A DNA stretch of 64,000 nucleotides, from positions 62,001-126,000 of the forward strand of contig NZ_RWKH01000007.1 of the NCBI RefSeq assembly GCF_003984625.1, read 5' to 3'. The position numbers and the translations under genes were made by a program. Numbering within the stretch: the stretch's first letter is position 1; each line of letters starts with the position of its first letter. Below, piece after piece: positions 1,542 through 6,876 of the stretch. Origin of the DNA: Variovorax sp. DXTD-1 (GTDB lineage: Bacteria; Pseudomonadota; Gammaproteobacteria; Burkholderiales; Burkholderiaceae_C). The notes under the pieces are model-generated. The model searched no databases and was not told the origin of the DNA. It worked only from the letters and a program-made list of their open reading frames with translations.

Positions 1542-2393
1542 TCATGATCGGAGGGCTGTGGACTGCGCTGCTCGGACCCGTGCTCGGTAAGCCGCCCACT
1601 GCTCCGTCTGAGTCCAAGCCCCGAGCCCCAGCCTGAGGCCTTCAGCCTCGATCGACGCGCGGGAGTCGGGATCGCCAGCAGCAACGCTGGTAGCCGCTGC
1701 CTGCGGCCTACGCTGCGCGTACCACTCCGCCTCGAAGCCTTGCCAACTGAACTCAACGCACGCGGTGATTGCGTCCGCTATGCCGAGCCCCGCCTTGGCA
1801 GCTTCACGCCTGATGGCATTGAGCACCGTGTCGGTGACTGGGCCCGCTCGCTTGGCCTTGCGCACGGCCAGCCACTCGTCCATGAGGCTTTGGGGGACAT
1901 CCGCCGGGCAAGGTGCTGCAGCGCGCTTGCGCGAGCGCTGGTGTGTCACTGATGGTTCTATGTTGGGTATTGATGGTTTGGGTCCGTTTCCCGGACGGGT
2001 CTGGTCCGTTTCCCGGACGGGTGTAGTCCGTCTCCCGGACGGGTGGGCGTCCGTCTCACGGACTGGTCCGTTTCCCGGACGGGTTCGCCTTGCGGAGTGG
2101 TTCGCTTGTTTCTGGGGATAAGCCTCGACTTTTTCCACAACCTTGTCCACATTGATGCGGCATCGGTTGTTCACGCCGGAGCGCCGGTCGACGGTCACGA
2201 GCCCCGTTCCTTCAAGAGCCTTCAACGCCTCGATGACTGCCGTGCGCTGTAGGCAGGTCCATGCGCCAATCTTGGGCACCGACGGCCATGCGAGCCCCGC
2301 GTCATCGGCATAGTCGGCCAGGCACATCAGCACGGCCTTCTGCGCAGGCGTGAGCCGCATCGGAGTGCAGAGGGTCGTGACGGCGTTGCTCAC
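1542..2393 (-). CDS. Phage/satellite replication protein with N-terminal winged-helix domain and embedded origin iterons
   Basis: 283 residues from a GTG start whose GTGA overlaps the stop of the preceding gene, implying translational coupling. Residues 1-85 form a MarR/DnaT-like winged helix (LTPAQKAVLMCLADYADDAG, then WPSVPKIGAWTCLQRTAVIE), as in the helix-turn-helix N-termini of phage and plasmid replication initiators. Residues about 95-145 are low-complexity and made of PVRETD, PSGRRT and TRPGNGP units, which are the three reading frames of one DNA repeat. This recalls lambda O, whose gene also contains the origin iterons. The C-terminal part (LMDEWLAVRKAKRAGPVTDT, ALEGxG-like helices) resembles the C-terminal region of such proteins. 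Role inferred: binds the iterons and starts element replication. No primase or helicase motif is visible. Confidence 0.7.
   Translation of the reverse strand: MSNAVTTLCTPMRLTPAQKAVLMCLADYADDAGLAWPSVPKIGAWTCLQRTAVIEALKALEGTGLVTVDRRSGVNNRCRINVDKVVEKVEAYPQKQANHSARRTRPGNGPVRETDAHPSGRRTTPVRETDQTRPGNGPKPSIPNIEPSVTHQRSRKRAAAPCPADVPQSLMDEWLAVRKAKRAGPVTDTVLNAIRREAAKAGLGIADAITACVEFSWQGFEAEWYAQRRPQAAATSVAAGDPDSRASIEAEGLRLGLGAWTQTEQWAAYRARVRAAQSTALRS
1981..2084 (+). repeat. Five-copy iteron array inside the replication gene (candidate origin)
   Basis: Five near-identical 20-bp units start at 1981, 2003, 2025, 2048 and 2065. The shared core is GTCCGTTTCCCGGAC, with variants GTCCGTCTCCCGGAC and GTCCGTCTCACGGAC, and it has dyad arms GTCCG/CGGAC. 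The first three spacings are 22, 22 and 23 bp, about two helical turns, so copies face the same side of the DNA; the last is 17 bp. Because 22 is not a multiple of three, the units are translated in different frames. The DNA, not the peptide, is therefore what is conserved. This is the expected design of an initiator-binding origin. Confidence 0.8.
2113..2151. other. Three DnaA-box-like 9-mers flanking the iterons
   Basis: Next to the iteron array lie TGGGGATAA (2113-2121; complement TTATCCCCA), TTTTCCACA (2131-2139) and TTGTCCACA (2143-2151). Each differs by one base from the DnaA box TTATCCACA. Three such near-matches in 39 bases beside an iteron array suggest host DnaA helps open the origin. 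They also lie within the replication gene. One-mismatch boxes occur by chance, so the clustering is the argument rather than any single site. Confidence 0.45.
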
Positions 2394-3622: not shown

Positions 3623-3844
3623 TTATAGCGCGACGCCGACCGCGGAAGCTGTCTGAGGCTGACTCGAGCCCCAGCGAGAAAGCCGGCGATAGTGGGCTTC
3701 GGCGGCGGCTTCATCTTCGCCGTAGTCGGCGATCACAACGCCATGGCGAATCACTACGAAGGGCGCCCTGAAGGTCATTCCAAGACCAAGGGGGCGGCCG
3801 TCGCGGTGCGTCACCTTGGACCCGAGGGAGAAGGGCTTAGCCAC
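3623..3844 (-). CDS. Small hypothetical protein
   Basis: About 73 residues. Two GTG starts are possible (3853 and 3844); the second has AGGGTGG at a suitable distance. The beginning overlaps the 3' end of the upstream gene, suggesting coupled translation. It begins MAKPFSLGSKVTHRDGRPLG, with a beta-rich stretch (FRAPFVVIRHGVVIADYG) that resembles small barrel-like accessory proteins. Family unknown. Part of the element's early-region gene set. Confidence 0.5.
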   Translation of the reverse strand: MAKPFSLGSKVTHRDGRPLGLGMTFRAPFVVIRHGVVIADYGEDEAAAEAHYRRLSRWGSSQPQTASAVGVAL

Positions 3845-4193
3845 GGCAGCCACCCTGATAGGCGATGTCGTCGGCGATCTCAGCGACTGCGTCCAAGTTC
3901 ACCCTCTGGCGGATGATCAGGTACTGCATGCCACACGCAGCGTCATCGTCCCATTCCGCCATGCAGACGGGTACACAGTTCTGCTGAAGGCTCTTCTCGA
4001 GGACGGGGTCGATCCGGGAGCAGTCACGCACCGTCTCGATGAGGTGGCGTGCATCGTTGATCCACAAACAGAGGCTAGCGAGCCCCCTTGTCTCAGTGAC
4101 CATCGTACTGATGTCGCGCATCTTCGCCTTGACGGCTTCGCTGTTCAGGGTATGGGCGGTGGGCGCGGTTTGCCCGATAATTTTGGTAGCCAT
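3837..4193 (-). CDS. Hypothetical protein
   Basis: 118 residues from the ATG at 4193, preceded by GGAAAGGAC; an upstream in-frame start at 4250 lacks such a site. Mostly helical with several cysteines (residues about 42, 57, 72, 76, 87 and 116), an acidic segment (AEWDDDAACG) and no membrane helix. Resembles the small helical proteins found beside replication and defence genes in phages, but I cannot assign a family. It overlaps the next gene by a few bases. Confidence 0.55.
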   Translation of the reverse strand: MATKIIGQTAPTAHTLNSEAVKAKMRDISTMVTETRGLASLCLWINDARHLIETVRDCSRIDPVLEKSLQQNCVPVCMAEWDDDAACGMQYLIIRQRVNLDAVAEIADDIAYQGGCRG

Positions 4194-4326
4194 GATGTGC
4201 GGTCCTTTCCGAGGTGTGCACGTTTGGTTAGAACGGCTGCAGGACTCCACTCCTGTGGCCGTTCGCTTTTGTGCCTCAGATGTCCGTTATGGGAATCTCC
4301 ATGTCGGCCGCCCTGAGACGCGGCGG

Positions 4327-4506
4327 TCATTCCTTCGGGATCTTGGCTCTGTCGATCGCCTGAGAGAGCCACGCGGCCCCCAGCAAACGGAGCTTTTCCC
4401 AGCGCGCTGGTGTAAGGCGAACAGTGCCCGGTATCGTGCGCAACTCTTCCGGTAGAGCTGGGCGGCCACGGGCTCTCGCCAGAGCATCCTTTTGTTCTTT
4501 GGTCAT
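4327..4506 (-). CDS. Small ribbon-helix-helix-like DNA-binding protein
   Basis: 59 residues, ATG with a strong GGAGAAAG site. After a basic lead (ARGRPALPEELR) comes a short beta-strand-like segment (GTVRLT), a helix (PARWEKLRLLG) and a second helix (AAWLSQAIDRAK). This is the order and size of a MetJ/Arc ribbon-helix-helix domain. The 5' flank carries repeated TACGTTT motifs and dyads (4533-4596), so it is probably a self-regulating repressor and may control the divergent gene at 4649. Fold assignment is by pattern only; an unrelated short helical protein is possible. Confidence 0.55.
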   Translation of the reverse strand: MTKEQKDALARARGRPALPEELRTIPGTVRLTPARWEKLRLLGAAWLSQAIDRAKIPKE

Positions 4507-4648: not shown

Positions 4649-5245
4649 ATGACTTCGGAGGACATCGTCACGGCGGCGCTTGCGAGATCTCAACGGCTTT
4701 CGGATTGGATCCAGGCACACCACCCCACCACGGTTGACGCGAGCGACGGCAAGAGGTTCGCCGCCGCTTGGTATGCCATTGCTATTGACCATCGAGAGGC
4801 AATCATGTTGCTGGTGCAACGTGGCGCCCGGAGTGCGGCTTTTGCGCTATGCCGCTCGATCTACGAGGCTTGGGTCCGCGCGAGTTGGGCACACATGTGT
4901 GCATCTCCACAAGAAATCGAGCGCTTCGAAGCGCAAGGCATTCTTCCGAAAATAGAAACAATGGTTCGACGCCTCGATCTACGCTTGGGGACGACAAGAA
5001 TTTTTTCGCAGATCAAGCGGTCTGCATGGGAATCCATGTCTGACTACGCACATGGAGAGCAGCGGCAAATCGCTCGTTGGTTCGATGCCGATGGCATCGG
5101 CGCGGCCCACCCAGATGTGGAGGTCGTGGCCCTTCTGCAGGCCCTGGACGTATACGCCACTCTCTGTCTAGCGGGCATCTTTGATCTCGCGGGCCTTCCG
5201 ACCGAGCCGTGCGCCGCCAAGATGGCGGAAGTCGCCTCAGCGTGA
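4649..5245 (+). CDS. DUF6988-like protein; likely cargo gene of the element
   Basis: 198 residues, ATG start, the only plus-strand gene in the element. All-helical and soluble. Landmarks are a central AFALCRSIYEAWVRASWAHM segment (residues about 62-82), an ERFEAQGILPKIETMV stretch and ISDYAHGE-like SDYAHGEQRQIARWF (about 130-146). This matches my recollection of the DUF6988 pattern (RxxYEAWVRxxWL...DYTHG), related to DUF5677-type proteins of unknown function. Its isolation, opposite direction and own terminator resemble accessory or defence cargo in phage satellites. No catalytic residues can be named, though the conserved His in YAHG could matter. Confidence 0.6.
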   Translation: MTSEDIVTAALARSQRLSDWIQAHHPTTVDASDGKRFAAAWYAIAIDHREAIMLLVQRGARSAAFALCRSIYEAWVRASWAHMCASPQEIERFEAQGILPKIETMVRRLDLRLGTTRIFSQIKRSAWESMSDYAHGEQRQIARWFDADGIGAAHPDVEVVALLQALDVYATLCLAGIFDLAGLPTEPCAAKMAEVASA

Positions 5246-5369: not shown

Positions 5370-6644
5370 TCACACTTGATCGCCTTGACCGGCTACGCAG
5401 GTATTGAGAGACACCACATTTCCAGTCTTCGGAATGGTGTCGCAGTAGTCCGCCCAGGCCTGCATCATCTTGAGCCGCTTGGCGAGCATGTCGCCGCGGC
5501 GGTAGGCGGCCTCTACGGCTGAATCGAGGGTGTGCGCCAGCGCCATCTCGGCCAGGTCGCCCGGGAAGGCGGTTTTCTCCGCTACCCAGTCCCGGAACGT
5601 GCTGCGGCAGCCGTGCGGCACGCATACCCTGCCCTTCGCGTCCTTGTAGTCCATCCGGCGCATGCAAGCGGTCAAGGACATGTCGCTGAGCGGCTGGAGA
5701 GGCTTGCGGCCGGGGAACACCAGTTCTGATCCATCGATGCGCGGCAAGGCTTCGAGGAGCTGCAGCGCCTGCTTCGACAGCGGCACGCGATGCTCCTTCT
5801 TGGCCTTCATGCGGTCGGCCGGCACGATCCACAGCTTGGCATCGAGGTCGATCTCGTCCCACCGAGCCCCGCGCACTTCACCCGATCGCGTCGCAGTCAG
5901 CACCGCCAACTCCAGCGCCCGGGCGCTCATGCCTTCGACCTGGCGCAGATCGCGCATGAAGGCACCGACCTGCTCGACAGGCAGCGCGGGGTGGTGGACG
6001 ACCTTCTTAATCTTCCGCGGGCGGCCTAGGAGTTGGTCGAGGTGGCCCCTCCATCGGGCCGGGTTCTCGCCCTTCCTGTAGCCCCGCACGGTCGCCCAGT
6101 CGAGCACGGTCTCGATCCGGCCGCGCAGGCGCGATGCGGTTTCGGTCTTTGTGGTCCAGATGGGCTCCAGCACCGTCAGCAAATGGGATAGGTCGATGTC
6201 TTGCACGAGCATCTTGCCGATCGTCGGCTTCGCGTAGAGGTCGAGCGTGCTGCTCCACTGGCCGCGGTGCTTGGCGTTCTTCCACTCCCCGGATTTGGCC
6301 TTCAGGTAGGCCTCGACGCACTGCTCGAAGGTCCGAGCCTTGGCGCTGGCCGCTGCAACGGCGCTACGGGCCGCCTGGCGGGCTTGGATGGGGTCTTCCC
6401 CTGCATGGATCTTGTCGCGTGCAGCCCTGGCCCGTTCTCGGGCCTGCGCGAGGGTCACATCGGGAAAGCCACCGAGCCCCATGTCGCGGATCTTGCCCGC
6501 CACCGTGGCACGTAGAACCCACGAGCGAGCCCCGGCCTCGTTGATCTTCAGTTTCAGGCCCGCCACGCCTCCGACCGCATGAGCGCCTGGCTTTGTCAGC
6601 CGGCCGACCTGCAGCGCCCCGAGTTCTGCCGCCTTCTTAGGCAT
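5370..6644 (-). CDS. Tyrosine recombinase (P4-type site-specific integrase)
   Basis: 424 residues from the ATG at 6644 (AAAGGA 6 bases upstream; an in-frame GTG at 6671 is less likely). Domain order is typical: N-terminal DUF4102 arm-binding domain (GVAGLKLKINEAGARSWVLR, GFPDVTLAQARERARAA), a SAM-like core-binding domain (about 100-200), then the catalytic domain. The latter has the first Arg in TATRSGEVRGARWDEI, HGCRSTF (HxxR), the third conserved His in LAHTLDSAVEAAY and Tyr in AAYRRGDML. The family inserts at tRNA 3' ends, consistent with tRNA-Ser only 148 bp upstream. Full length and apparently intact. Confidence 0.95.
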   Translation of the reverse strand: MPKKAAELGALQVGRLTKPGAHAVGGVAGLKLKINEAGARSWVLRATVAGKIRDMGLGGFPDVTLAQARERARAARDKIHAGEDPIQARQAARSAVAAASAKARTFEQCVEAYLKAKSGEWKNAKHRGQWSSTLDLYAKPTIGKMLVQDIDLSHLLTVLEPIWTTKTETASRLRGRIETVLDWATVRGYRKGENPARWRGHLDQLLGRPRKIKKVVHHPALPVEQVGAFMRDLRQVEGMSARALELAVLTATRSGEVRGARWDEIDLDAKLWIVPADRMKAKKEHRVPLSKQALQLLEALPRIDGSELVFPGRKPLQPLSDMSLTACMRRMDYKDAKGRVCVPHGCRSTFRDWVAEKTAFPGDLAEMALAHTLDSAVEAAYRRGDMLAKRLKMMQAWADYCDTIPKTGNVVSLNTCVAGQGDQV

Positions 6645-6791
6645 ATCCGTCCTTTCCACTATCCTTGCCACTAAAAACAGAAGGATTATGACGGACGCCG
6701 AGGAACCTGCCAGAACTTCCGTTCTAGCTTCTCTCCAATGAAAACAGGGGGTTTGGGGGAGTCAGAGGGTCGATGGGGAACCCTCAAATTG

Positions 6792-6876
6792 CGGAGAGTG
6801 TGAGATTCGAACTCACGGACGCTTTCACGTCGGCAGTTTTCAAGACTGCTGGTTTAAACCACTCACCCAACTCTCC
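6792..6876 (-). tRNA. tRNA-Ser(TGA), integration target of the adjacent element
   Basis: 85 nt with acceptor GGAGAGT/ACTCTCC, anticodon loop CTTGAAA (TGA) in stem GCAGT/ACTGC, a long type II variable arm and T loop GTTCGAATC. The 3' CCA is not encoded. The 3' end faces the integrase, so this end of the gene is the likely attachment core. The tRNA lies just downstream of hemW in the same direction. Confidence 0.95.

Follow-up and report, generated by a model that had tools for sequence, protein, structure and literature searches.

According to the published descriptions of bacteriophage lambda, its origin of replication lies inside the O gene (PMC7466680, PMC5043065), with inverted-repeat iterons within the gene and, on their C-terminal side, an AT-rich region (PMC5043065, PMC7466680). 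In the lambda sequence, we measured an AT content of 0.78 over 40 bp for this region, and the four iterons are read in three frames (phases 0, 2, 2, and 1). For Bacillus phage SPP1 (gp38/oriL), published work describes an initiator gene that contains repeats bound by the initiator, together with an AT-rich unwinding element (PMC6316719); in Pseudomonas phage MD8, repeats are reported within the O-like gene (PMC8508860). We analyzed a stretch of 64,000 nucleotides from Variovorax sp. DXTD-1 (contig NZ_RWKH01000007.1, positions 62,001 to 126,000), hereafter called the window, in which an O-like gene shares with lambda the in-gene inverted-repeat iterons, their reading in three frames, and the location of an AT-richer stretch, and resembles SPP1, as published, in its in-gene arrangement. 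Since the iterons of lambda use three frames as well and the in-gene repeats of MD8 are in print, the array belongs to a known kind; as far as the accounts of lambda, SPP1 oriL, and MD8 go, an initiator origin located within a gene is already known in kind, and the window adds a member. Very probably, the array is the part of a lambda-type origin to which the initiator would bind, contained in the gene that encodes this O-like initiator; its binding and origin activities are putative.

The gene (1542–2393, minus strand) encodes a protein of 283 aa that matches Pfam HTH_36 at its N-terminus (E 1.5e-9) and phrog_678, 'replication initiation O-like', in PHROGs (4.7e-24). The O-like assignment relies on PHROGs families bearing this name; phage relatives of the protein include genes annotated as replication initiation O-like. 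Inside the gene, five 19-bp copies of GTCCGTYTCMCGGACNGGT occupy positions 1982–2084 of the minus strand. In gene order, they are located at 2066–2084, closest to the winged helix (read TRPGNGP), 2049–2067 (PVRETD), 2026–2044 (PSGRRT), 2004–2022 (PVRETD), and 1982–2000, adjoining the AT-rich stretch (TRPGNGP), with codon phases 1, 0, 2, 0, and 1 on the gene strand. The sequence-only reading had described iterons translated in three frames inside a replication gene, and both the frames and the peptides PVRETD, PSGRRT, and TRPGNGP were confirmed. As in lambda-type O/ori, several inverted-repeat iterons are thus found mid-gene: each 15-bp core reads as the inverted repeat GTCCG-N5-CGGAC without a mismatch in any of the five copies, and this repeat occurs nowhere else in the window.

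The iteron pattern, allowing up to 3 mismatches, gave 5 matches in the window versus a mean of 0.18 and a maximum of 2 in 100 dinucleotide shuffles. Across the 5.25-Mb genome, GTCCGTYTCMCGGAC had 23 matches with at most 2 mismatches, none of them exact outside the array. The repeat score of the gene was 54, whereas the highest score among 4,000 synonymous-codon shuffles was 40; none reached 54, and the peptide plus codon choice therefore cannot account for the DNA repeat. An exact double iteron was not found in viral contigs, and a search of plasmids matched 12 records, none of which covered 80% of the query. DnaA boxes beside the iterons were also considered: one TTTTCCACA is present at 2131, yet only 3 were found in 108 related ORFs, and the array was not assigned to the type of iteron origin that has DnaA boxes.

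Start-to-start gaps between the iterons are, in gene order, 17, 23, 22, and 22 bp. The earlier description of a 22–23 bp spacing holds for three gaps and overlooked the fourth, of 17 bp. The same applies to the suggestion of cooperative binding on one DNA face: gaps of 22–23 bp come close to two helical turns, whereas the 17-bp gap on the N-terminal side, which is also a family feature, amounts to about 1.6 turns, so that the array would not lie on one face throughout and the statement is valid for part of it.

Homologous proteins and their DNA loci were collected, with a tblastn match in 188 of 192 loci. We kept 146 ORFs, including that of the window, after dropping those shorter than 190 aa (8), those with no HTH-like motif among residues 1–60, and those that duplicated the DNA of another ORF over codons 50–200. 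Five of the 146 were then removed for weak or no repeats and others for similar linkers, leaving 108 non-redundant representatives, the window's again included. The closest relatives (P0003–P0006) were compared as proteins only; their loci did not turn up in genomes of the genus when P0001 (21) or P0004 (101) was the query.

In 135 of the 146 ORFs, the repeats in linker DNA scored above every one of 100 synonymous shuffles. Copies of the best motif occurred in at least two codon phases in 139/146 ORFs and in all three in 81/146 (133 and 80, respectively, among the 135 that beat the shuffles). Eleven ORFs did not beat every shuffle, five of which (L061, L024, L076, L083, and L086) have fewer than three repeat sites. 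Where the window's protein has PSGRRT as its third unit, the aligned proteins P0004, P0012, P0014, and P0018 have a TRPGNG-like unit, and a PVRETD-like unit follows again; the apparent frame of the third unit thus seems to differ between relatives while the repeat series continues. The proposal that conservation acts at the DNA level is borne out by these comparisons, since the repeats of relatives vary in frame and hence in peptide.

Relatives carry different linker palindromes with a similar spacing pattern. Among the 108 representatives, iteron gaps cluster at 16–18 bp on the N-terminal side and at 21–23 bp on the C-terminal side, unlike in lambda, where the gaps are 20, 24, and 23 bp and the iteron sequence is another one. 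Multiples of 3 account for 105 of the 397 gaps of 15–24 bp, showing no preference for preserving the reading frame. No description of this 17/22 spacing pattern was found in a literature search that reached few subscription journals, and it may be in print.

If the iterons are bound by the initiator, their DNA was expected, from the sequence-only reading, to co-vary with the N-terminal winged helix of the protein, and this is what we observed, with relatedness partly controlled. Among the 108 genes, iteron-motif similarity was correlated with N-terminal similarity, taken over the first 75 residues (partial Mantel r 0.49, p 0.001), and hardly with that of the C-terminal part (r 0.06, p 0.006). 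Mean motif similarity was 0.667 for the 2,214 pairs in which only the N-terminal part was similar, 0.524 for the 454 pairs in which neither part was, and 0.776 for the 113 pairs in which both were; no pair combined a similar C-terminal part with a different N-terminal part. The highest value being found when both parts are similar, shared ancestry contributes to the signal.

Structure prediction with AlphaFold2 (24 sequences; mean pLDDT 75.7, pTM 0.37) gave a confident region at residues 1–91, a low-confidence linker at about 91–160, confident helices at 161–230, and a less confident tail. The first region, encoded by 2121–2393 of the minus strand, is a predicted winged-helix domain (pLDDT 83–96 for residues 1–90), and the protein thus has, according to the model, the N-terminal winged-helix DNA-binding domain of a lambda-type O/ori. 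Its Foldseek matches were weak and generic, mostly winged-helix regulators with MarR/CodY-type proteins scoring best (best E 8.6e-3), and a sequence search against solved structures returned one marginal MarR match (E 0.0079). The predicted C-terminal helices (encoded by 1704–1913, minus strand; pLDDT 79–93) belong to a part of the protein that differs among relatives (alignment A1). Between the winged helix and these helices, the model places a flexible linker, and it is this linker that the iterons and the AT-rich stretch encode, which would explain why the protein tolerates the peptide of any frame.

Directly after the last iteron, positions 1937–1981 of the minus strand form an AT-richer stretch that is a candidate DNA unwinding element. 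In the window, its AT content is moderate (0.53), and GC3 drops from 0.71 for the whole gene to 0.36 in the 14 codons that follow the array. Across the 108 genes, the three 15-bp bins next to the last iteron on this side have GC3 values of 0.42, 0.31, and 0.46, compared with 0.55–0.81 in the other bins, and the 45 bp following the array rank among the gene's top 10% of AT-rich windows in 90 of the 108. An AT-rich stretch on the C-terminal flank of the iterons, as in lambda-type origins, is therefore moderate in the window and clear across the family.

A second repeat, AACCRTMA, is located in the same region. The window has two exact copies, and not the three or four found elsewhere, both on the minus strand: AACCATCA at 1971–1978 and again at 1950–1957, 21 bp apart. 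In the interval that runs from 5 bp ahead of the last iteron's end to 75 bp beyond it, the 108 genes contain 265 copies, whereas 28.6 would be expected according to synonymous shuffles (at most 39 in any of 200). The motif itself had been chosen among k-mers enriched in these 108 genes, and the count is not independent of that choice. At least two copies are present in 86 genes, at least three in 65, and fewer than two in 22. Most gaps between copies (143 of 173) are 10–12 bp, copies are about 150 times denser here than in the rest of the genes, and only 3 copies lie on the reverse strand, versus 265. The copies use at least two frames in 79 genes and all three in 29; read as NRK/NRQ, EPS, and RTV, they account by eye for the conserved peptides after the iterons.

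The second repeat is shared by genes with different iterons. At least two copies were found in 21/27, 36/39, 18/25, and 11/17 genes of four crude iteron classes, and also in genes with other N-termini (L022, L027, L047, and L049). Ten homologues that share, by eye, only the C-terminal part were different: eight had no copy, and two (L044 and L045) had one stray copy each. Phages phi2 and MD8, which have the same HTH-type O-like gene as the window, also carry AACCRTMA, in three copies each, and differ from it by a CCGCAG..TGC-type repeat (by eye) and by an adjoining P-like loader gene; the O-like genes of CUB19 and Itty13 have four copies and one, respectively. Lambda O has no such array, and one stray copy is found elsewhere in the gene. 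In five genes without two exact copies (L132, L148, L154, L075, and L206), look-alikes were seen by eye at the same place (ACATCA, AACAACCAAG, and AACCACCAAG).

Scanning viral contigs for three spaced copies of AACCRTMA yielded at least 120 stretches, and 80 loci were examined. Fifty-eight of these matched an HMM of O-like genes built from the 108, some of them on contigs already among the 108, while 14 were six-bp microsatellites and 8 were others, four of which (L285, L290, L304, and L318) were initiator-like by eye and four (L253, L271, L289, and L300) were not. A control scan with rearranged letters gave 81 stretches, and among the 80 loci examined, 1 was in an O-like gene (L376). In L318, which has no match to the O-like HMM, AACCATCAAGC recurs about every 11 bp, and no upstream iteron array was found. 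The second repeat may extend beyond the HTH_36 family. A description of the AACCRTMA array was not found in our literature search, which reached few subscription journals, and may be in print.

Because of its strand bias and near-helical spacing, the AACCRTMA array would best be explained as a strand-specific contact in opened DNA. Published accounts report that RK2 TrfA binds one strand of the opened origin sequence-specifically at 13-mers (PMC4980987), and that the DnaD recognition element of B. subtilis is bound on one strand, also sequence-specifically, by an initiation protein (PMC10201434). Both are possible models for the array, although their sequences differ from it. We propose, with confidence evenly balanced for and against, a three-part DNA grammar on one O-like gene, made of iterons spaced by 16–18 bp, iterons spaced by 21–23 bp, and strand-biased AACCRTMA copies every 10–12 bp. 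The iteron sequence would change with the winged helix while AACCRTMA stays constant across iteron types, and the AACCRTMA array would be a single-strand recognition element that determines which strand the helicase is loaded on. It would then be the phage equivalent of the DnaA-trio, the DnaD recognition element, or the RK2 13-mers.

The frame-varying repeats, the tracking of the N-terminal domain, and the AT-rich stretch lend support, by comparison of sequences, to the initial proposal that the gene contains the origin bound by its own initiator, comparable to lambda O/ori. In such an origin, a protein dimer would bind each inverted-repeat iteron via its N-terminal winged helix, and the bound array, with its 17-bp gap followed by gaps of 22–23 bp, would bend the DNA. 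The resulting strain could open the AT-rich stretch at 1937–1981, on the C-terminal side, and the initiator or a partner would hold one exposed strand, which in most relatives has AACCRTMA every 10–12 bp. The C-terminal region may then recruit the helicase or its loader. Binding, bending, opening, and directed helicase loading would most likely proceed as they do with lambda O. Embedded origins would become recognizable by sequence alone in phages and islands without an annotated origin, and the pairing of each iteron type with its winged helix would allow a comparative study of initiator–site recognition. If AACCRTMA is indeed a strand-recognition element, the strand choice of an origin for helicase loading would become directly testable.

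Alternatively, the palindromes could be operators used by the protein to repress its own transcription or to set its timing, without any role in an origin. Winged-helix proteins are commonly repressors, the best Foldseek matches are MarR/CodY-type regulators, and binding within the gene could block elongation. However, an operator needs neither the O-like annotation nor an adjoining AT-rich stretch with phased repeats, nor does it need the replication genes found next to the O-like gene in 8 of 10 relatives scanned (DnaB in three, an IstB/DnaC-type ATPase in four, and a primase-helicase in one; the ten were hand-picked from sixteen listed loci, and the next gene had no Pfam match in the other two). 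We thus consider a purely regulatory role improbable. It is still harder to accept that the repeats were selected for their peptide, as a repetitive disordered linker whose length and composition may matter, with the DNA repeat as a by-product: copies lie in different frames and encode unrelated peptides in 139 of the 146 ORFs, gaps that are multiples of 3 are not preferred (105/397), and the score of the window's gene was unmatched in 4,000 synonymous shuffles. Spreading selfish palindrome elements, such as those of the REPIN and RPE types, are also inserted in genes, and short palindromes lying in coding sequence in several reading frames could be taken for one of them, but the lack of any other exact copy in the genome and the presence of different linker palindromes at similar spacing in relatives contradict this explanation, to which we give almost no credence.

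A last possibility, compatible with the identification of the array as a lambda-type origin, is that the origin is now a dead remnant under no selection. The element that carries the gene meets an apparently cut efflux gene at about 580 and has no recognized loader gene, whereas no stop interrupts the initiator ORF and each of the five cores retains a perfect GTCCG-N5-CGGAC repeat. We regard the remnant as a serious possibility that falls somewhat short of even. As the window's copy of the lambda-type origin lies in a seemingly decayed element with no recognized loader gene, it may no longer fire alone.

The element extends to a tRNA-Ser gene (6791–6876, minus strand), whose 3' end (6791) is its right end; alignments with genus relatives stop at 6791 in 4 of 4 loci compared. 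The left end is near 580, where homology to six other genomes of the genus ends at 572–580, and it adjoins a match to an outer-membrane efflux protein that resembles a cut efflux gene. Repeats of the tRNA-Ser end were considered as the other attachment site, but in the window and 20 kb leftward the matches were of 11–12 bp, at chance level. The minus strand of the element also carries a tyrosine integrase gene (5370–6671; Pfam Phage_integrase, E 3.6e-18; PHROGs integrase, 2e-52), a gene encoding an AlpA-like regulator or excisionase (2581–2790; Pfam Phage_AlpA, 5.4e-6), and a small ORF of 64 aa that overlaps the start of the O-like gene (2390–2584) and has no Pfam or PHROGs match. Phage-inducible islands and satellites combine an integrase, AlpA, and their own replication gene at a tRNA site, and are mobilized by a helper phage. 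The same combination of integrase, AlpA-like, and replication genes at a tRNA site is present in this element.

In lambda, O is followed by P, whereas no helicase or loader gene, and thus no P-type loader beside the O-like gene, was recognized among the 23 ORFs scanned between 580 and 6790 (14 in the first scans, with those at 3623–3853, 4287–4487, and 988–1230 compared with PHROGs only, and 9 more compared with Pfam). Among four phage regions, a P-like helicase loader gene is next in phi2 and MD8, and hypothetical proteins are found in Itty13 and CUB19. The element looks decayed, and it may need a partner in trans or be in the course of decay.

The distance from tRNA-Ser to the efflux match is about 19, 11, and 60 kb in three other genomes (G402, G409, and G418), compared with about 6 kb here, and this tRNA site may therefore be a hot spot for insertions. 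Next to the left end, a stop-free piece (579–1145) reaches the apparently cut efflux gene at about 580. Its single tblastn match of this kind, a weak one, was to a phage major capsid protein (E 5e-3); it had no Pfam or PHROGs match, and at E 0.001 a search of the protein database retrieved only the piece's own protein. Capsid genes may once have been part of the element. Finally, an ORF on the plus strand (4649–5245), opposite to the integrase, AlpA-like, and O-like genes, matches Pfam DUF6988 (E 2.5e-18) and is a possible accessory gene.
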